DNA of 64,000 nt from Desulfatibacillum sp. (GTDB lineage: Bacteria > Desulfobacterota > Desulfobacteria > Desulfobacterales > SpSt-501): positions 62,001 through 126,000 of the forward strand of contig DYEU01000012.1 of the NCBI GenBank assembly GCA_020725555.1, read 5' to 3'. This document shows, in pieces, positions 8,157 through 58,019 of this stretch (positions within the stretch are counted from its first letter, which is position 1; the number at the start of each line of letters is the position of its first letter). The notes beneath the pieces are model-generated. The model searched no databases. It was not told where the DNA came from and saw only the letters and a program-made list of their open reading frames with translations. Position numbers and translations under genes: made by a program.

Positions 8157-10324
8157 GCCTCGTTCTCGAACCGCAGGCGATCGGGCCGGGGGACCGCCCC
8201 GTGGCCGGCGGCAAGGCCGTCCGCCTGGCCCGGATGCTGCGGGCCGGGTTTCGCGTGCCCGGTTTCCTCTGCCTCCCCGCCGGCGCCTACCGCCGCTTCG
8301 TCGCCGCCGGCGGCCTCGCCGAGCGCATCCGGCTTGAGCTCTCCCGCAAGGACGCCGCCGCGATGCGCTGGGAGGAGCTCTGGGATTGCGCCACCCGCAT
8401 CCGCAGCCTCTTCCTGCGCCACCCATTCCCGCCGGGGATGGACGGGGCGTTGCGCGAGGCCCTGGCGCGGCGCTTCGGCGACGGCCCGGTCGCCGTCCGC
8501 TCCTCGGCGCTCGAGGAGGACGCCCCGGGGGCCTCCTTTGCCGGCCTCCACGCCTCCTTCGTCGCCGTGTCCGGGGCGGAGGCGGTGCTCGAGCGGATCC
8601 GGCTCGTCTGGGCCTCCCTCTGGTCGGATGCCGCGCTCCTCTACCGCCGGGAGCTCGGGCTGGACCCCGGCCAAAGCGCCATGGCCGTGGTCGTGCAGGA
8701 GATGGTCGCCGGCGAGGCCTCGGGGATCTGCTTCTCCCAGGACCCCGGGGTCCCCTCGCAGGCCGTGGTCGAGGCCGCCTGGGGCCTCAACCAGGCCGTG
8801 GTCGACGGCGAGGTCGAGCCCGACCGCTGGATCGTCGACCGCGAACACCGGCGCATCCTGGAACACCGCCCGCCCGCCCGCCGCGGCCGGCGCCTGATCC
8901 CCACCCCCGGCGGGGTGCGCTTCGAGGCCCTGCCCGCGGCCCTTTCCGGCCGGCCGCCGCTTTCCCCGGAGGAGGCGCTCGCGGTCGCGGACCTCGCGCG
9001 GCGCGCCGAGGAGCACTGCGGCGAACCCCAGGACATTGAGTGGACCCGGAGCGGCGGGGAGTTCGTGCTGCTCCAGTCGCGGCCGACCACGGCGCGCCGC
9101 GGCGGCGCTGGCGGCGACTCCCGCGCGTGGTACCTCGGGTTGCGCCGCAGCTTCGAGAACCTCAAGCGGCTGCGCGCCGGGATCGAGGGGCAAAGGATCC
9201 CCGAGGCGGAGCGCACCGCGGCCGCGCTTGCGGCCGTCGACCTCGCGCGGCTTGCGGATGCCGAGCTCGCCCTCGAGATCGAGCGGCGCCGCGCGATCCA
9301 CCGCCGCTGGCAGGAGATCTACACCGCCGAGTTCATCCCCTTCGCCCACGGCATGCGTCTCTTCGGCGAGGTCTACAACGAGCGGCTGAAACCCGAGGAC
9401 CCCTACGAGTTCACGGCGCTCTTGCGCCGCGGCGGGCTCTTGAGCCTGGAGAGAAACCGCGCGCTCGAGCACCTGGCCGCGCTCGTGCGGGAGCGGCCGG
9501 AGCTCGCCGCCTGCCTCGCCGCCGGCGACTGTGCGGCGGCCGCACCCGATTTCCAAAAGGAGCTCGAGTCCTTTCTCCTGCGCTTCGGCGACGTCACCTG
9601 CGAGCTGGGCGGCCGGGCGCTCTGCGCGGGGGCGCTTCGGCCGCTTCTCCATCTCCTGCACGAGATGGCCCGCCGCCCCTCCCCCGGGCCCCGCGACGCA
9701 CCCGGCCCCGACGCCGAGCGTCTCGAGGAGGCCTATCTCGCCTCCTTCCCCGAGGAGCGGCGGCAGGAGGCGGCCGAGCTGCTCGATCTCGCCCGCGCGA
9801 GCTGGCGGCTGCGCGACGACGACAACCTGCATGTGGGGCGGATCGAGGCGCGTTTGCGCGAGGCCGAGGCCGAGGGGCGGCGCCGGCTCGCGGCCGGCGC
9901 CGCGGAGGAGGCGGCCCTCCGAGGCGCGCTCGCCGCCGCGGAGGAGCCCGGGCCCGCCCCCGCCGCCGGAAACGGGGAGGGGGGCCTTAGGCCGCGCCAG
10001 CTGCGCGGCCAGCCCGCCGGCCCGGGGTTCGCCCGCGGGCCGGCCCGGGTGATCCGCGCCGCCGGCGATCTGGAGCGCTTCCGCGCGGGCGAGGTGCTCG
10101 TCTGCGACGCGATCGACCCGCGCATGACCCACGTCGTCCCGCTCGCCGCGGCGATCGTCGAGCGGCGCGGCGGCATGCTGATCCACGGGGCGATCATCGC
10201 CCGCGAGTACGGGATCCCCTGCGTGACCGGCGTCCCCGAGGCGGTGCGCCTCATCCGCACCGGTGACCTCCTCGCCGTCGACGGCTACCTCGGGATCGTC
10301 ACCGTGGGGGAAGGGGAGCTCTAG
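8153..10324 (+). CDS. PEP-synthase-like phosphotransferase (PEP/pyruvate-binding plus mobile His domain)
   Basis: A 723-residue protein with an N-terminal PEP/pyruvate-binding ATP-grasp domain (residues 1 to about 310; VAVRSSALEEDAPGASFAGL near 115 is the diagnostic motif and ends with QDIEWTRSGGEFVLLQSRP) and a C-terminal phosphohistidine swivelling domain (GGMLIHGAIIAREYGIPCV, about 670-690), with a long helical region between. The C-terminal PEP-binding TIM barrel of true PEP synthase is absent. That architecture is shared with rifampin phosphotransferases and with dikinases of unknown substrate. Start overlaps the PPOX stop. Its stop codon overlaps, within CTAG, the stop of a convergent PPOX gene. 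The substrate is not known. Confidence 0.85.
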   Translation: MSLVLEPQAIGPGDRPVAGGKAVRLARMLRAGFRVPGFLCLPAGAYRRFVAAGGLAERIRLELSRKDAAAMRWEELWDCATRIRSLFLRHPFPPGMDGALREALARRFGDGPVAVRSSALEEDAPGASFAGLHASFVAVSGAEAVLERIRLVWASLWSDAALLYRRELGLDPGQSAMAVVVQEMVAGEASGICFSQDPGVPSQAVVEAAWGLNQAVVDGEVEPDRWIVDREHRRILEHRPPARRGRRLIPTPGGVRFEALPAALSGRPPLSPEEALAVADLARRAEEHCGEPQDIEWTRSGGEFVLLQSRPTTARRGGAGGDSRAWYLGLRRSFENLKRLRAGIEGQRIPEAERTAAALAAVDLARLADAELALEIERRRAIHRRWQEIYTAEFIPFAHGMRLFGEVYNERLKPEDPYEFTALLRRGGLLSLERNRALEHLAALVRERPELAACLAAGDCAAAAPDFQKELESFLLRFGDVTCELGGRALCAGALRPLLHLLHEMARRPSPGPRDAPGPDAERLEEAYLASFPEERRQEAAELLDLARASWRLRDDDNLHVGRIEARLREAEAEGRRRLAAGAAEEAALRGALAAAEEPGPAPAAGNGEGGLRPRQLRGQPAGPGFARGPARVIRAAGDLERFRAGEVLVCDAIDPRMTHVVPLAAAIVERRGGMLIHGAIIAREYGIPCVTGVPEAVRLIRTGDLLAVDGYLGIVTVGEGEL

Positions 10325-10764
10325 CGCCCGGCCGGGGGCTCGAGCGCGGCGTAGTGCGCCTCGTGCACCCCCCGGAGCAGGAGAAGGGAGCGGGGCCGGA
10401 CGCACAGGACCGCCGTCTCGGGGCGCGCCAGCAAGGGGGCCAGATGCGGGTGGGCCGCGGAAAGCAGCCGGCAGGCCGCGGCGCGGCGCCCCGGCTCCTC
10501 GATCACGCGGCACTCCCCCTCGATCGTGAGCGCCTGCGCCTCTTCGCGGGGGCGGGTCTCGCGGGTGTCGATCAGCAGGCTCACGGCGGGGTTGGCCAGG
10601 AGGTTGCGGTACTTGCGCGTCGCCCGCAGGGTCGCCAGATAGAGCTCGGTCCCTTCCGCGTTCGGCGCGTAGGCCATGAGCGAGCAGTAGGGGCGATTGC
10701 CGTCGCTGGTGGCGAGCACGCAGAGGTCCCGTTCCCGGATCAGCCGCATCATCTCCGCGAGCAT
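10321..10764 (-). CDS. Third PPOX-class protein, convergent with the PEP-synthase-like gene
   Basis: 147 residues. Motifs RERDLCVLATSDGNRPYCSL and LATLRATRKYRNLL fit the flavin-split-barrel family and match the copy at 7674 in the second region. The C-terminus (CVRPRSLLLLRGVHEAHY) is a typical last strand. It reads toward the phosphotransferase gene and the two stop codons share the palindrome CTAG at 10321-10324. It may use the divergent region upstream of 10905. Confidence 0.83.
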   Translation of the reverse strand: MLAEMMRLIRERDLCVLATSDGNRPYCSLMAYAPNAEGTELYLATLRATRKYRNLLANPAVSLLIDTRETRPREEAQALTIEGECRVIEEPGRRAAACRLLSAAHPHLAPLLARPETAVLCVRPRSLLLLRGVHEAHYAALEPPAGR

Positions 10765-27277: not shown

Positions 27278-27766
27278 ATGAGCGATTCGGTCCTCAACGG
27301 CAAACGGCTGCTCGCCGTGGACGACGAGCCCGATGTCCTCGATGCGCTCGAGGAGATCGTCCAGGCCGATGCCCCGGGTTGCACCCTCTACAAGGCGCGG
27401 TCCTACGAGGAGGCGATGCGGCTGCTCGAGGAGCTCGACTTCGATCTCGTGGTGCTCGACATCATGGGGGTGCGGGGCTTCGATCTGCTCGAGGAGGCCG
27501 TCAAGCGGGGCTTGCGGGTCGCGATGCTGACCGCGCACGCGCTCACGCCCGAGGCCCTCAAGCGCTCCTACGACCTCAAGGCGCGTGCGTTTCTGCCCAA
27601 GGAGAAGCTTGCCGAAATCGTGCCCTTCCTCGAGGACGTCCTCACCTGCGATTACGAGACCGGCTGGAAGCGCCTCATGCGCAAGCTGCACGCCTTCTTC
27701 AACGCGCGCTTCGTCTCCGACTGGGAAAAGAAGACCGGCCTCGAGTGGAAGGAATGGGCCAAGTGA
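27278..27766 (+). CDS. Stand-alone response-regulator receiver protein
   Basis: 162 residues. Residues 8-118 are a receiver domain: the acidic pair in LAVDDEPDVLDAL (Asp15-16), the phosphorylated Asp in LVVLDIMGVRGFDLL (about 61), Thr in VAMLTAHAL and Lys in FLPKEKL are all present. The remaining 40 residues form an amphipathic tail (WKRLMRKLHAFFNARFVSDW) without a recognisable DNA-binding fold. AAGGAGG precedes the ATG. No kinase gene adjoins; the nearest is at 56 kb. Confidence 0.9.
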   Translation: MSDSVLNGKRLLAVDDEPDVLDALEEIVQADAPGCTLYKARSYEEAMRLLEELDFDLVVLDIMGVRGFDLLEEAVKRGLRVAMLTAHALTPEALKRSYDLKARAFLPKEKLAEIVPFLEDVLTCDYETGWKRLMRKLHAFFNARFVSDWEKKTGLEWKEWAK

Positions 27767-47470: not shown

Positions 47471-47965
47471 ATGGACGAGGCGGGGCTGCTTTCGTTTCTT
47501 GAGGCGCGGGGGATCCCCTACCGCCGCTCATCCCACCCGGCGGTCTTCACCGTGGCCGAGGCCGCGCGGCGGGTGCCCCCCCTTCCCGGGGCGAAGACGA
47601 AGAACCTCTTCCTGCGGGACAAGCCGGGGCGGCGCCACCTGCTGCTCACCGTCCCGGCCGCCAAGGCGGTCGATCTCGCCGCGCTCTCGCGCGCGCTCGG
47701 GCTGCAGCGGCTGGGGCTCGCCTCGGCCGAGCGGCTCGGCCGCTTGCTCGGGATCGCACCGGGCGCGGTGACGCCGCTTGCCGTCGTGAACGACCCCGAG
47801 GGCCGGGTCGAGCTGTTCTTCGACGAGGAACTCTGGCGCGAGGAGGCGCTCCAGGTGCACCCGCTGGTCAACACGGCGACCCTCGTGCTGGGTCGCGAGT
47901 CGCTCGAGCGCTTCCTGGCGGCCCTCGGCCGGCCGCTGCGCTGCATCCCCGTCCCTTCCCGTTAG
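47471..47965 (+). CDS. YbaK/ProX-type prolyl-tRNA editing protein
   Basis: 164 residues. SSHPAVFTVAEAARRVPPLP, then GAKTKNLFLRDKPGRRHLLL and AKAVDLAALSRALG, match ProX/PrdX proteins, which hydrolyse mischarged Ala-tRNA(Pro); the lysine in KTKNLFL is the family's key residue. The GAVTPLAVVNDPEGRVELFF loop supports the ProXp-ala-like type. The stop overlaps the stop of the convergent CheX-FliN gene. Confidence 0.88.
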   Translation: MDEAGLLSFLEARGIPYRRSSHPAVFTVAEAARRVPPLPGAKTKNLFLRDKPGRRHLLLTVPAAKAVDLAALSRALGLQRLGLASAERLGRLLGIAPGAVTPLAVVNDPEGRVELFFDEELWREEALQVHPLVNTATLVLGRESLERFLAALGRPLRCIPVPSR

Positions 47966-49464
47966 TCCTTGAGGCCGCGGAGCCGCTCCCGGCGGCCGGC
48001 GATCTCGGTGATGCGGATCCCGTACTTTTCGTTTTTCACGACGACCTCGCCGCGGGCGATGAGGACGTCGTTCGCCAGGATGTCGACCGGCTCGCCCTCG
48101 AGGCGCGAGAGCTTGAGGGCCGAGCCCGGCTGCAGCCGCAGGAGCTCCTGGATGGGGATGCGGCTCCTGCCGAGCTCGACGGTGAGCTCGACGGGGATGT
48201 CGACGAGGAGATCGAGGCCGAAGTCTTCGGGCAGGCCGGGCGCCTCGGGGGCGGGGGCCGCCGGCCCGGGGGGCGGGGCGGCGGGCGGCGCGGCCTGCGC
48301 CGCGGGGGAGGGCTCGCGGGCGGCGGGGCGCCCGGAGGTGGCGCGGCCGGCCTCCGCGGCCGGCTTTTCGGCCCCGGCCGCTGGGGTCTCCTCCACGCGG
48401 TAGTGGACTTCCGTTGCGCCGCGGGGGGCGGCCTTCACGAGATCGGAGATCTTGAAGCCCATTTCGGCGAAGACCGGCAGGCCCCCGGCCTCGAAGGCGA
48501 AGCGCTCGTAGCGGTCGAGGTTCAAGGCCTCGATCATGAAGTCCGTCCCCGCCGTGACCGAGGGGGTCGAGAGCGCGCAGCGCAGGCCCGTGTCGGTGAG
48601 CGCCGATTTGAGGCCGCCGGTCACGATGTTGCCGAGCTCGCCCAGCATGTCGTGGATCGCCGCCTCGTCGTCGATCTCCCCGGGCTCGACCCCGAGCATG
48701 TTGGCCGCCATGCGGCGGGCGAGCTCCTCGCCCACGTGCACGCTCACCACCCCGGTTGCGTCGCCCGCGAAGCAGACCGAGGAGACAAGCCGCTTTCCCT
48801 GCAGGCTCGAGGCCGAAACCGTATCGACCGGCGCGAGCGCAAGGGAAAACATCGTCTCGAAGACCTCGGTCACGGCCGCGGCGATCTTGGCGCGCGGGTC
48901 GAGCGCCTCGAGCTTGGCCGCATCCACGTGCGGCAGCCGGGACATCGCCTCCGGCGTGCCGAAGTCGAGCCCCGCCTCGGCGGCCTCGACGCCCTTGAGG
49001 CCGGCCTCGACGACGAAGACGTGCTCCCCGTGGCGGAAGGCCATGCGCTCGAAGCGGTCCATGGCGAGCGAGCGGATGGTGAAGTCGGTGCCGAAGGTGA
49101 TCGAGGGCGTGGAGAGGACACAGGGGTGGCCCGCGTCGTTGAGCGCGGATTTCAGGTTCCCGCCGACGATGTTGGTCACCTCGGCGAGGAGATCGCGGAC
49201 ATCGGTGCCAAGATCGACCTCGGCCGGCTCCTGCTCGAGCATGCGCCCCGCCATCAGCCGGCCGAAGGTCTCGGTCACCTGAAGGTTGAAGATCCCGGTG
49301 ACCGCGCCCGCGAAATTGAGCGTGCCGACGAGGCGGTGGATGCCGAATCCCGGCGGGGGCTCCGCGGCGAGCGGCTCGACCTCGAGCGCGAGCATCGTGC
49401 CGTAGGTGTCGATCACCGAGGACGTGATGCGCTCGCGGATGTCGAAGGTGGAAAGGTCGCCCAT
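47962..49464 (-). CDS. Tandem CheX-CheX-FliN fusion protein
   Basis: 500 residues. Residues 1-165 and 190-345 are two CheX/CheC-type modules. Each has an intact phosphatase motif: Asp91, Glu95, Asn98, Pro120 and Asp272, Glu276, Asn279, Pro301, with the Asn-to-Pro step 22 in both. A Pro/Ala-rich linker spans about 355-410. Residues 415-490 are a FliN/SpoA domain (DLLVDIPVELTVELGRSRIP, then PGSALKLSRLEGEPVDILAN and IARGEVVVKNEKYGIRITEI). The layout recalls FliY, the CheY-P phosphatase of the flagellar switch in Gram-positive and related bacteria. No flagellar or che gene is in the window. Ribosome-binding site AGGCAGCG is weak. Confidence 0.88.
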   Translation of the reverse strand: MGDLSTFDIRERITSSVIDTYGTMLALEVEPLAAEPPPGFGIHRLVGTLNFAGAVTGIFNLQVTETFGRLMAGRMLEQEPAEVDLGTDVRDLLAEVTNIVGGNLKSALNDAGHPCVLSTPSITFGTDFTIRSLAMDRFERMAFRHGEHVFVVEAGLKGVEAAEAGLDFGTPEAMSRLPHVDAAKLEALDPRAKIAAAVTEVFETMFSLALAPVDTVSASSLQGKRLVSSVCFAGDATGVVSVHVGEELARRMAANMLGVEPGEIDDEAAIHDMLGELGNIVTGGLKSALTDTGLRCALSTPSVTAGTDFMIEALNLDRYERFAFEAGGLPVFAEMGFKISDLVKAAPRGATEVHYRVEETPAAGAEKPAAEAGRATSGRPAAREPSPAAQAAPPAAPPPGPAAPAPEAPGLPEDFGLDLLVDIPVELTVELGRSRIPIQELLRLQPGSALKLSRLEGEPVDILANDVLIARGEVVVKNEKYGIRITEIAGRRERLRGLKD

Positions 49465-49952: not shown

Positions 49953-50684
49953 TCAGGGTCGGGCGGGGATCCAGCCGGCGCCGCCCTTCGGCCGGACCGC
50001 AACCCCGGTGAACCAGACCCTGAATACGCCGTCCGCCCCGCGGCGGTCAAGGGAGAGCCTGAGCGGTCCCACCTCCCGCCAGTCCTCCCAGGTCGTGACC
50101 CGCGTGGGCCGGGGCTCGCCGCCCTTGCGGTAGACCCATTGCAGGATGCGGCCCTCGGGGTCGAGGAAGAGCTCGTAGACGTCGCCCGGGGTGTAGCCCT
50201 CGTCGGCGGGGTAGGCGACGACGACGCGCCGCGCGCGGCCCTGCCCGATCGGCAGCGCGGCGGGTGCGGGGTCTTCGGAGATCCTCGCCGCAAGGTCCCA
50301 GGTGAGCCGCAAAGGGAACAGGAGCCAGTAGTTGTCGTTGACGAAAAGGGGGTCTGCCGCGCGGGCGCGCTCGGAGGCGGAGCCGGAGGAGAGAAGGCCG
50401 CGCTCCCAGGTCAGCTCTTCCGCGGCCCCCCCGGCCGGGCGGAAAGTCACGCGGTCGGCGGCGGGCGCCCAGAGCCAGCTGCGGCTCACCTCCCGGTCGG
50501 GGAGCTTGACGTGGAAGGTGTAGGCGATCTCTTCGATTTGCGCGAACTCGGAAACCCCGCTGCCGCGGGCGATCGCGGCGCGCAGATCACCTGCGGCAGC
50601 GGCGGGGGCCGAAAGACAAAGGATGGCGGACAGCCAAAGCGTCACCGGCGCAAGGGCCCTGCGGCCCGGGTGGGCGGGGGTCAT
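49953..50684 (-). CDS. Exported protein of unknown function
   Basis: 243 residues with a signal peptide (VTLWLSAILCLSAPAAAA). The mature part is beta-rich with AYTFHVKLPDREVSRSWLWA and PGDVYELFLDPEGRILQWVY, reminiscent of periplasmic lipid-carrier/LolA-like folds, although I cannot assign it. Start at ATG 50684 follows AAAGGAGACCCGCC. Confidence 0.72.
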   Translation of the reverse strand: MTPAHPGRRALAPVTLWLSAILCLSAPAAAAGDLRAAIARGSGVSEFAQIEEIAYTFHVKLPDREVSRSWLWAPAADRVTFRPAGGAAEELTWERGLLSSGSASERARAADPLFVNDNYWLLFPLRLTWDLAARISEDPAPAALPIGQGRARRVVVAYPADEGYTPGDVYELFLDPEGRILQWVYRKGGEPRPTRVTTWEDWREVGPLRLSLDRRGADGVFRVWFTGVAVRPKGGAGWIPARP

Positions 50685-50804: not shown

Positions 50805-51329
50805 TCAGCCGCGGCGGGAGCGCAAATGGACGATCTGGTTCTTGATTTCGCTCACGATGAAGCTGCTCCGCAGGGCGGCCGCGATCGGGCCCTCGCCCGG
50901 CGGCGCCCCGAGCACCGCGGCCGCGTGGCGGCGGATCGCGAGGATCCCTTCCGCCACCTCGCGCCGGAAATAGCCGGCGCGGGCGAGGCAGTTCGGCGGC
51001 GGGGCCTGTCCCAGGTTGATCCGCAGGCGGGGGACGAAGAGCGGCGCGCCCTCCTCCTCCGCGGCCGCCTCCGCCGGCCGGCGGCCGAGGTAGGCGAGCT
51101 GGTTCGCCATTTCCTCCAGGGTGAAGTAGGACCTGAGCGCCGCGGCGAGCTCCTCCTGCGTGGGCTCGACCCCCGTCGTGCGCCGGGTGAACTCGAGAAT
51201 TTCATGGAGGGCCTCGGTGAGGCGGGGTCCCAGCCGCAAAAGCGCCGGCGGGGCGGGGCGCGGGGGGACCCGGCCCCCGGCGGCGGAAGGGGCGCGCTTT
51301 ATGTCCGCAGGGGATCCGGCGAGGGTCAT
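50805..51329 (-). CDS. Unknown protein with a duplicated helical module
   Basis: 174 residues from ATG at 51329 (the frame is open further up but that part overlaps the neighbouring gene and looks non-coding). Two related blocks, about 37-81 and 121-169, end in AALRSYFTLEEMANQLAYL and AALRSSFIVSEIKNQIVHL. Between them is a Pro/Asn stretch (RLRINLGQAPPPNC). No known domain recognised. Cytoplasmic by composition. Confidence 0.62.
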   Translation of the reverse strand: MTLAGSPADIKRAPSAAGGRVPPRPAPPALLRLGPRLTEALHEILEFTRRTTGVEPTQEELAAALRSYFTLEEMANQLAYLGRRPAEAAAEEEGAPLFVPRLRINLGQAPPPNCLARAGYFRREVAEGILAIRRHAAAVLGAPPGEGPIAAALRSSFIVSEIKNQIVHLRSRRG

Positions 51330-51447: not shown

Positions 51448-51786
51448 TCAGAACTCGCCCAGCGGTCGCTGGAAGGTCCAATCGAAGGGTGCGACCACGA
51501 GCTTTTCGGTCGCCTGGTCGGTGTTGCCGCCGAGCGCCGCAAAGGGGTAGCTCACCAGCCAGACCGCCGTCCCCAGGACCGTGCCCACCATCCCGATCGG
51601 CCGCATGACGAGCGCATCCCACATCATCTGGCCGCCGGTCGGCTCCTGCTCGCAGTCCGTATAGTATTCCTTGTCGAGGCATTTGCCGCCGGCCGTGCGA
51701 TAGGCCGAGGCCGCCCCCGCCGTCCCGGCGCACAGCACGAGTGCCGCCATGAGCGCTGCCATCCACGCCGATTTCCCGAACCTCAT
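51448..51786 (-). CDS. Small exported protein with a C-terminal membrane segment
   Basis: 112 residues. A signal peptide (WMAALMAALVLCAGTAGAAS) is followed by a short region with two cysteines (GGKCLDKEYYTDCEQEP) and a hydrophobic glycine-rich stretch (RPIGMVGTVLGTAVWLVSYP). A ribosome-binding site AAGGAGGAGACC and a good promoter precede it. I do not recognise the family; envelope location is likely. Confidence 0.75.
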   Translation of the reverse strand: MRFGKSAWMAALMAALVLCAGTAGAASAYRTAGGKCLDKEYYTDCEQEPTGGQMMWDALVMRPIGMVGTVLGTAVWLVSYPFAALGGNTDQATEKLVVAPFDWTFQRPLGEF

Positions 51787-56300: not shown

Positions 56301-58019
56301 TCAGGCCGGGACCGGCTGGGCTTCGGCCTCGGCCGCCTTGAGCGGCAGCGCGATCGTGAACAGCGCCCCGTTTCCGGGCACGTTTTCGGCCGTGATGCGG
56401 CCGTGGTGGTCCTCGACGATCCCCAGGCAGATCGAAAGCCCCACCCCCATTCCCATCGTCTTCTTGGTCGTGAAGAAGGGGTCGAAGATGCGGTTCAGGT
56501 CCTTGGGCGGGATGCCGGGGCCGGAGTCGCGGATTTCGATCACGAACTCGTCGTCCCGGTTGTAGGTGCGCACGGCGATCTCGCCGAAGGCGCCCTGCTG
56601 GAGGTGGACCCGCTCGAGGTAGCCGGGGACCCCGGTGATGGCCTCGACGGCGTTGTTCACCAGGTTCATGAGCACCTGCCCCATCTGCTGCGGCGAGGCG
56701 ATGAGCGTCGCCCGGGCGGCGTGCAGCTCGAGCCGAGGGGTGATCATGTTTTTCTTGAGCAGGCTCTTGACGAGCGCGAAGGTGTTCTCGACCACCTGGT
56801 TCATGTCCACGAGCTGCTTGCGCTCCTTGCCCGGCCGGTTCAGGTCGATCAGGTTTTTCACCGTGTCGCGGATGCTGTTGAAGGCGCTCTTGATGAGCTC
56901 GAGCTTGCGCTGGAGGTAGTCGTCGCCGCTGTAGGTCGACTTGAGGACGTTCAGCAGCGCCGTGATCCCCTGGAGCGGGGAGTTGATCTCGTGGGCGATC
57001 GAGGCCGCGAGCTGGCCGGTCGCGGCCAGGCGCTCGGAGCGGATGAGCTGGTTTTGCAGCCGTTTCATCGCCGTGATGTCCCGGGCGACGCACAGGCGGC
57101 AGGGCTCGCCCAGGTAGACGATCCGGCGGCAGCTGAGATCGAAGGGGATCGCGCCCCCGTCGCGGGTGCGCAGCTGCACCTCGAGGCGCGCCTCCCCGCG
57201 CGCGCCGGCCTCCTCGAGCACGGCCGCGAGCTGGTCGGCCTGCTCGGGGATCGCCAACTCGACGAGCGGGCGGGCGACGAGCTCGCGCGGCTCAAATCCG
57301 GTGTTCCCGCGCACGCGGTCGTTGCACTCCATGACGAGGCCCTTCTCGTTCAGGATGAAGACGCAGTCGCCCACGTTCTCGAAGAGCTCCTTGTAGCGCG
57401 TGAGCTCCTCGGCGCGCTTGAACTCGGTGGTGTCCGTGGCGATGATCGTGGCCGCGATCACCCGGCGCTCGAGCCGCAGCGGCCCGATGCGGAAGGTGTA
57501 CCAGAGCGAGCGCCGGCCGTTTTCCATGAGCACCTCGAACATGTCCGTCTCCCCCGTCTGGAAGACGCGGCGCACGATGTCGCGGGAGGTCTTGCGCGCC
57601 TCCTCGGGGAGCAGCTCGTGGAAGGAGCGGCCGATCATGAGCCCCGGCGGGATGCCGGCGAGCGCGTGGTTGGCGAAGCGCACCGTGCCGGACTGGTCGA
57701 CGGTGAGGATCGTGTCGGGCGCGGTTTCGACGAGCGAGCGCCAGAGCTCCTCGGACTCGTTGAGCCGCCGGGTCGCCTCCTTGAGGCGGTTGATGATCGA
57801 CTGGGCGTGGGAGCCCAGGATGACGAGCAGGCAGAGCACCACGACGCGGATGTAGATGTCGTAGAGGTCCGGCCCGATCAGCTGCTTGATGAAGTTGAAC
57901 TGGTTCGAGAAGAAGATGTTCAGGATGGAGTCGAGCACCCAGTAGACGGTCGAGATCAGGATGACCGACAGCACCATCGAGTCCGAGGACTTGCGGAAAT
58001 CCAGGCCTGAGGATCTCAT
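56301..58019 (-). CDS. Membrane PAS-PAS sensor histidine kinase
   Basis: 572 residues. Two membrane segments (about 15-37 and 53-75; VLSVILISTVYWVLDSILNI, YIRVVVLCLLVILGSH) with almost no periplasmic part. PAS 1 about 85-200 (ETAPDTILTVDQSGTVRFAN), PAS 2 about 208-318 (ENVGDCVFILNEKGLVMECN). The HisKA domain carries His343 in LAASIAHEINSPLQG, and the ATPase NLVNNAVEAI, EIRDSGPGIP and GMGVGLSICLGIVEDHHGR. No response regulator adjoins; the receiver protein at 27.3 kb is a possible partner only in principle. Confidence 0.93.
   Translation of the reverse strand: MRSSGLDFRKSSDSMVLSVILISTVYWVLDSILNIFFSNQFNFIKQLIGPDLYDIYIRVVVLCLLVILGSHAQSIINRLKEATRRLNESEELWRSLVETAPDTILTVDQSGTVRFANHALAGIPPGLMIGRSFHELLPEEARKTSRDIVRRVFQTGETDMFEVLMENGRRSLWYTFRIGPLRLERRVIAATIIATDTTEFKRAEELTRYKELFENVGDCVFILNEKGLVMECNDRVRGNTGFEPRELVARPLVELAIPEQADQLAAVLEEAGARGEARLEVQLRTRDGGAIPFDLSCRRIVYLGEPCRLCVARDITAMKRLQNQLIRSERLAATGQLAASIAHEINSPLQGITALLNVLKSTYSGDDYLQRKLELIKSAFNSIRDTVKNLIDLNRPGKERKQLVDMNQVVENTFALVKSLLKKNMITPRLELHAARATLIASPQQMGQVLMNLVNNAVEAITGVPGYLERVHLQQGAFGEIAVRTYNRDDEFVIEIRDSGPGIPPKDLNRIFDPFFTTKKTMGMGVGLSICLGIVEDHHGRITAENVPGNGALFTIALPLKAAEAEAQPVPA

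Follow-up and report, generated by a model that had tools for sequence, protein, structure and literature searches.

FliY of Bacillus subtilis and Thermotoga maritima joins a CheC-type phosphatase domain to a FliN domain, and in most bacteria that possess it, FliY takes the place of FliN. The B. subtilis protein also carries a CheY-P-binding peptide at its N terminus. CheY-P is, likewise, the usual substrate of CheX. In Campylobacterota, one report (PMC9321776) describes a cheX-fliNO gene order, with a possible cheX beside fliN, and suggests a functional link between them. In the open literature, we found no description of a CheX-CheX-FliN architecture; an earlier mention in subscription reviews is possible.

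Here, we analyse such a gene, located in a window of 64,000 nucleotides (the whole stretch of DNA examined) from a Desulfatibacillum genome. The open reading frame starts with ATG and codes for two CheX modules, a linker and a FliN-type SpoA domain (Table 1).

Table 1. Parts of the CheX-CheX-FliN gene and their positions in the window
Feature	Position	Strand	Details and basis
Whole gene, CheX-CheX-linker-FliN/SpoA fusion	47962..49464	minus	500 aa; ORF, Pfam
CheX module 1, residues 1-160, motif D91-x3-E95-x2-N98 + P120	48985..49464	minus	Pfam, motif scan
Motif DLLAEVTN, module 1 residues 91-98	49171..49194	minus	motif scan
CheX module 2, residues 186-345, motif D272-x3-E276-x2-N279 + P301	48430..48909	minus	Pfam, motif scan, AlphaFold2
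Motif DMLGELGN, module 2 residues 272-279	48628..48651	minus	motif scan
Pro/Ala-rich linker, residues 346-411, fast evolving	48232..48429	minus	composition, dN
FliN-type SpoA domain, residues 412-500	47965..48231	minus	Pfam 420-488, TIGR02480

Domain organization of the fusion

An earlier note, made from the DNA letters, had described two CheX-type modules, a Pro/Ala linker and a FliN/SpoA domain in a 500-residue protein. All of these parts were recovered here. In Pfam, two stretches match CheX (106.3 bits, cut-off 27), residues 420-488 match FliMN_C (84.5 bits, cut-off 23.8), and there is a weaker match to CheC (41.9 bits, cut-off 22). The linker holds 15 Pro and 21 Ala in its 66 residues. 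The SpoA domain passes the NCBIfam FliN model TIGR02480 (95 bits, cut-off 84.05) and is 51% identical over 83 residues to the flagellar FliN of its own genome. The NCBIfam FliY models match only residues 410-499 and stay below their cut-offs (104.4 vs 218; 55.1 vs 219); the SctQ models also fall short of theirs. Judged by its profile matches, the fusion is a CheX and a FliN, and domain type and model cut-offs place it outside FliY. The resemblance to the plan of FliY, which had also been pointed out, therefore holds for the joining of a phosphatase to a SpoA domain but not for the kind of phosphatase: since the modules are CheX-type, the fusion is not simply a FliY with an extra repeat. Modules 1 and 2 are 42% identical over 151 residues and, on sequence grounds, are an internal duplication.

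Active-site motifs and fold

The motif [DS]x3Ex2Nx21P, whose Glu and Asn are the catalytic residues of CheX, matches the fusion exactly at residues 91 and 272, in agreement with the two Asp-x3-Glu-x2-Asn motifs, each with a Pro 22 residues on, that had been noticed before; shuffled copies of the protein gave 0.007 matches on average. Among 16 compared proteins with two CheX modules, both motifs are kept in 15, including all 14 that have a FliN part. The lone exception is an unfused protein (G030), with Ser in place of Asn in the first module.

An AlphaFold2 model of module 2 (48433-48936), built on an alignment of six repeats, reached a pLDDT of 87.3. Its best structural matches are eight solved CheX or CheX-like entries (Z 15.8-18.9), with 6vpw at the top (Z 18.9), followed at a distance by CheC (Z 11.8-12.2) and FliY (Z 9.8) of T. 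maritima and by FliM (Z up to 9.3). Its Glu and Asn fall in the same alignment columns as the corresponding residues of five solved CheX or CheX-like chains. As modelled, module 2 has a CheX fold, which goes against a repeat folding otherwise, an outcome that the earlier note had regarded as fatal to its reading. For module 1, the CheX fold appears only in a low-depth full-length model. Since the latter was built from 3 usable sequences and has a mean pLDDT of 58.9, with residues 345-500 under 50, its SpoA part and its relative placement of the CheX modules were not used. No FliM-like LSQEEIDALL peptide was seen by eye in the fusion, and in the low-depth model module 1 enters its first helix at residue 9. 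Since CheX is known as a dimer, the tandem modules may, by analogy, be a built-in pair.

The fusion and the flagellar cluster of the source genome

The source genome (3.59 Mb, 100% complete) contains only three SpoA matches, namely the fusion, FliM and FliN. FliM and FliN are encoded in a large flagellar/chemotaxis cluster on another contig (C32), where Pfam confirms FliM, FliN, FliF, FliG, CheA, CheR, CheD, CheB, a CheY-size receiver and two standalone CheX; the other flagellar gene names in this cluster were assigned by us. Hence, the fliM, fliN, fliG and che genes that the earlier note proposed to look for are all present on C32, with FliM and FliN of the ordinary kind; a fliY of the same architecture as the fusion was not found in the flagellar operon. 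CheZ was not found in this genome. One standalone CheX, CheX-A (L008 9178-9663), adjoins a receiver-STAS (REC-STAS) regulator (9682-10425), and the other, CheX-B, adjoins the CheY-size receiver. The fusion is the third CheX-type and the second FliN-type gene of the genome and therefore replaces neither CheX nor FliN.

When the genes predicted in the genome's own flagellar and chemotaxis stretches (L008-L010) were compared by BLAST with the 61 predicted genes of the window, no flagellar or chemotaxis gene was found besides the fusion, as the earlier note had stated; the same comparison returned two generic two-component proteins (27278-27766 and 56301-57977).

Distribution and selection

In a first search of 58 genomes, the source included, copies that are full-length or nearly so turned up within the genus and in further families of the order. 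In a profile search, the fusion was present in one open frame in 60 of 389 genomes of the order, counted by hand as matches with an open frame of 440 or more; 26 of these were matched in two pieces, the SpoA piece of some lying outside the matches listed. Four further genomes were read apart from the 60: G121, with one CheX and FliN; G149, where one CheX and FliN are visible at a contig end; G204, with two CheX on a contig that ends before any FliN part; and G319, which has the full architecture with the first CheX split over two frames. A phylum-wide search (395 genomes, E <= 1e-80) gave 8 matches, four of them outside the order and all in one family (f121). Of these four, G653 and G518 are complete, G613 is truncated at a contig end, and G458 has only one CheX, joined to FliN. 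The named relatives are metagenome-assembled genomes labelled uncultured Desulfobacterales and Desulfobacteraceae.

Comparison with the homolog of G003 gave a dN/dS of about 0.20-0.25 in the CheX modules, a dN of 0 against a dS of 0.35 in SpoA, and a dN of about 0.25 in the linker; by these rates, the CheX modules and SpoA are under purifying selection. SpoA is thus the most conserved part, the linker the least and the CheX modules lie between, consistent with a docking domain that is fixed, a tether that is loose and enzymes that are constrained. In the SpoA tree, the fusion domains form a paralog lineage apart from the flagellar FliN of the same genomes (support 98/98 on a short alignment of few columns, leaving out G032, whose frame is FliM, and G063, where no FliN was found). 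In the CheX-module tree, repeats 1 and 2 do not separate cleanly into two clades, and in some genomes the two repeats group within one protein or among close relatives, which could reflect more than one duplication, gene conversion or poor resolution.

The fusion follows one FliM lineage

FliM is present in 56 of the 60 carriers vs 161 of the 329 other genomes (Fisher p = 8e-12, uncorrected for relatedness). In the other four carriers (G035, G268, G123 and G316, which are 95%, 86%, 73% and 64% complete, respectively), neither FliM nor FlhA was found. The last three may be incomplete bins. The absence is harder to dismiss in G035, in which no FliM, separate flagellar FliN or FlhA was found and the fusion is kept; a congener, G331, has both FliM and FlhA. 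In 12 of the 14 carriers checked, no SpoA protein except FliM and FliN accompanies the fusion (three SpoA matches each).

The FliM proteins of carriers match the Pfam FliM model with E-values from 1.7e-52 to 6.2e-39, and about 120 of the 161 non-carrier FliMs outscore them (hand count). FliM of the source genome is 30-35% identical to 13 canonical FliMs and 50-94% identical to 20 other carrier FliMs. In a tree of 48 FliM rows, all 25 carrier-labelled rows (22 with complete fusions, two truncated at contig ends, G204 and G613, and G458 with one CheX and FliN) fall into one clade with support 100/100, the 23 non-carriers being hand-chosen, the canonical ones mostly from high-scoring matches, and many low-scoring non-carrier FliMs being left out (e.g. 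G093, G100, G105, G139 and G180). Seven rows labelled as non-carriers belong to the same clade: G001, G004, G030, G034, G094, G130 and G155, of which G030 lies near the root and G155 has a single lost-motif CheX with FliN. The other side of the tree consists of 16 rows, all non-carriers. As far as this tree of sampled genomes reaches, the fusion is restricted to one divergent FliM lineage of sulfate-reducer-like bacteria. Within one bacterial order, the FliM proteins (L126-L165, L187-L193) split deeply into two lineages that share about 30-35% identity.

An LSQEE-type N terminus is kept in the 21 carrier FliMs compared; PMC6946799 names the EIDAL region of the FliM N terminus as CheY-binding. 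CheZ was not found in any of the 22 carriers tested and was found in 5 of 15 non-carriers. With no CheZ detected in any tested carrier, CheX-class enzymes likely end the CheY-P signal in these bacteria.

Genomic neighbourhood of the fusion

In the source genome, the fusion lies tail to tail with a gene for a tRNA-editing domain and behind a Dabb-domain gene. The closest relative shares this order, and others of the genus share part of it. Three nearby genes of the window without a Pfam match (49953-50684, 50805-51239 and 51448-51762) also keep their order in several genomes of the genus.

In other lineages, the fusion is found in or beside the flagellar/chemotaxis cluster. In G183 and G075, cheY-cheX-cheB-flgK-flgL and one small gene precede it on the same strand; in G115, the same series precedes it with one opposite-strand gene between (CheB, FlgK, the flagellin-domain FlgL and the fusion being Pfam-confirmed). 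In G653, outside the order, it precedes sigma-54 activators and the run flgB-flgC-fliE-fliF-fliG through to fliM-fliN, on the same strand; a gene for a receiver and sigma-54 activator is directly downstream of the fusion and a second one precedes flgB, which lacks a Pfam match and was named from its similarity to a gene of the source genome. The csrA-fliW pair adjoins the fusion in G208 and lies within 3 kb of it in G041. At several other loci (e.g. L047-L050, L052), no flagellar gene adjoins the fusion. The position seen in the source genome is thus local, and the term orphan, used in the earlier note, suits the source genus but not the wider order, given the number of carriers and the loci just described.

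A simple consensus scan of the 250 bases preceding each of 37 family genes, two of them FliN-only and two coding for CheX-CheX without FliN, offers weak evidence on flagellar promoters. It gave no standout sigma-28 or sigma-54 site upstream of the fusion in the source genome, and strong sigma-54-like sites in 4 of the 37 stretches (G041, L102, L113, L115), two of them from one family. The only strong sigma-28-like site among the 37 precedes the second G020 gene. This gene (L055 7682-8701) codes for CheX-CheX and lacks a FliN part; G020 has the fusion as well.

Shortened and unfused relatives

Several relatives have shorter forms of the architecture. G121 and G458 have one CheX with an intact motif, followed by FliN. 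In G081, G185, G155 and G175 (L203-L206), the single CheX has its Asn replaced, together with the Glu in G185 and G155, and the FliN domain looks intact; in these proteins, the enzyme seems to have decayed while the docking part persisted. FliN-only genes with long low-complexity N-terminal tails stand at the syntenic place of the fusion in G001 and G034 (L056 7950-8369; L057 7764-8249) and are apparently remnants left once the CheX part was lost. In G094 and G130, SpoA-only matches lie on the same contig as the usual neighbour gene of the fusion, less than 1 kb from it. The SpoA of G001 groups with the fusion SpoA of G006 (support 97/87), so that the CheX part was most likely lost in G001. 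In G004, neither the fusion nor its neighbour gene was found. Collectively, the CheX-reduced, CheX-decayed and FliN-only forms suggest that the FliN part is kept longest.

G030 presents the unfused state, with a CheX-CheX protein of 332 aa (L053 7237-8972) beside a receiver protein that resembles the partner of CheX-A, and with separate FliN genes.

Proposed function

We consider it likely that the fusion is a FliY-like flagellar-switch phosphatase, made of tandem CheX modules on a flexible tether and a dedicated second FliN paralog. It probably sits in the motor, where it ends swimming-direction signals. The SpoA domain would pair with FliM or FliN and thereby dock in the C-ring at the FliN tier; the two CheX active sites, suspended close to the rotor, would dephosphorylate CheY-P at the switch. 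The turning signal would be shortened in this way in cells with no detected CheZ. The earlier note had offered, as one of two options, a switch phosphatase whose gene lies apart from the flagellar locus; the placement of the cluster on another contig, the link to one FliM lineage and the proximity to the cluster in other lineages all speak for it. Counting against a switch phosphatase are the four FliM-less carriers, especially G035, the distance from the cluster and the lack of a standout sigma-28 or sigma-54 site upstream in the source genome, and the fact that the phosphatase part is dispensable in some flagellated relatives (G001, G034, G081, G185, G155, G175, G004). A possible but more tentative view is that CheX-CheX-FliN is a clip-on, adjustable phosphatase that replaces a variable share of FliN and so tunes CheY-P lifetime in each motor. 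This lifetime would be set by the number of phosphatase-bearing subunits installed amid ordinary FliN, and the ring position could be kept with less enzyme or none, as in the one-CheX, lost-motif and FliN-only relatives.

The same domains could act elsewhere than at the switch. The SpoA domain might dock on the export side, through FliH-type contacts, with CheX acting on a regulator of flagellar expression or assembly, as an assembly checkpoint. The sigma-54 activator genes around the fusion in G653, csrA-fliW in G208 and G041, and the few strong sigma-54-like sites would suit this idea; we regard it as unlikely, because the fusion lies at the cheY-cheX-cheB-flgK-flgL end of the cluster in G183, G075 and G115, the CheY-binding type of FliM N terminus is kept in carriers, and CheX generally acts on CheY-P. 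Another candidate substrate is the REC-STAS regulator paired with CheX-A, in which case the fusion would bring that separate pathway to the motor. Indeed, the tandem modules resemble CheX-A (42.5% and 37.8%) more than CheX-B, which module 2 matches at 29% and module 1 not at all; a matching regulator is found close to CheX-A in 15 of 16 loci, that of the source genome included (others L166-L180), with the receiver part only in G030 and none on the short stretch of G051; and in G030 the unfused CheX-CheX stands next to a regulator with the length and start sequence of the CheX-A partner. Since the REC-STAS gene does not adjoin the fusion in the loci read, this pathway seems quite improbable. 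A role unconnected with flagella, in which SpoA would serve the phosphatase for oligomerisation, could account for G035, but FliM accompanies the fusion in nearly all carriers and in a single clade, and no non-flagellar SpoA partner was found in the 14 carriers checked, which leaves such a role highly improbable. The second option of the earlier note, a SpoA domain serving another secretion or motility machine, is not supported, and non-flagellar secretion was rejected, because FliM and FliN are the sole other SpoA matches in the source genome.

Comparison with known systems

The switch phosphatase that we favor can be set beside three described proteins. Like FliY, it combines a member of the CheC/CheX/FliY phosphatase superfamily with a FliN-type SpoA domain at the C terminus, and the single-CheX relatives with lost motifs count as a parallel. 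Unlike FliY, it has two CheX modules instead of one CheC-type domain (Z of 16-19 with CheX, about 12 with CheC), its genome keeps a separate FliN, and its gene does not follow fliM in the source genome. With the standalone CheX of T. maritima, Borrelia burgdorferi, Vibrio, Shewanella and Desulfovibrio it shares the fold and the Glu/Asn motif, but it joins two covalent copies to a putative motor-docking domain. As for FliN, the fusion SpoA passes the same model, but it belongs to a separate paralog lineage and bears an N-terminal extension of 400 residues. The cheX-fliNO order of Campylobacterota differs in having separate genes and one CheX, in another phylum (PMC9321776).

The fusion marks a distinct FliM lineage in Desulfobacterales-type bacteria. 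Its relatives provide a natural series, from two intact CheX through one intact and one lost-motif CheX to FliN alone, with unfused CheX-CheX beside them, which suits testing the contribution of a rotor-borne phosphatase. Compared with FliY, the architecture suggests that signal termination was tied to the flagellar rotor a second time, by CheX and not CheC, and alongside FliN instead of replacing it.
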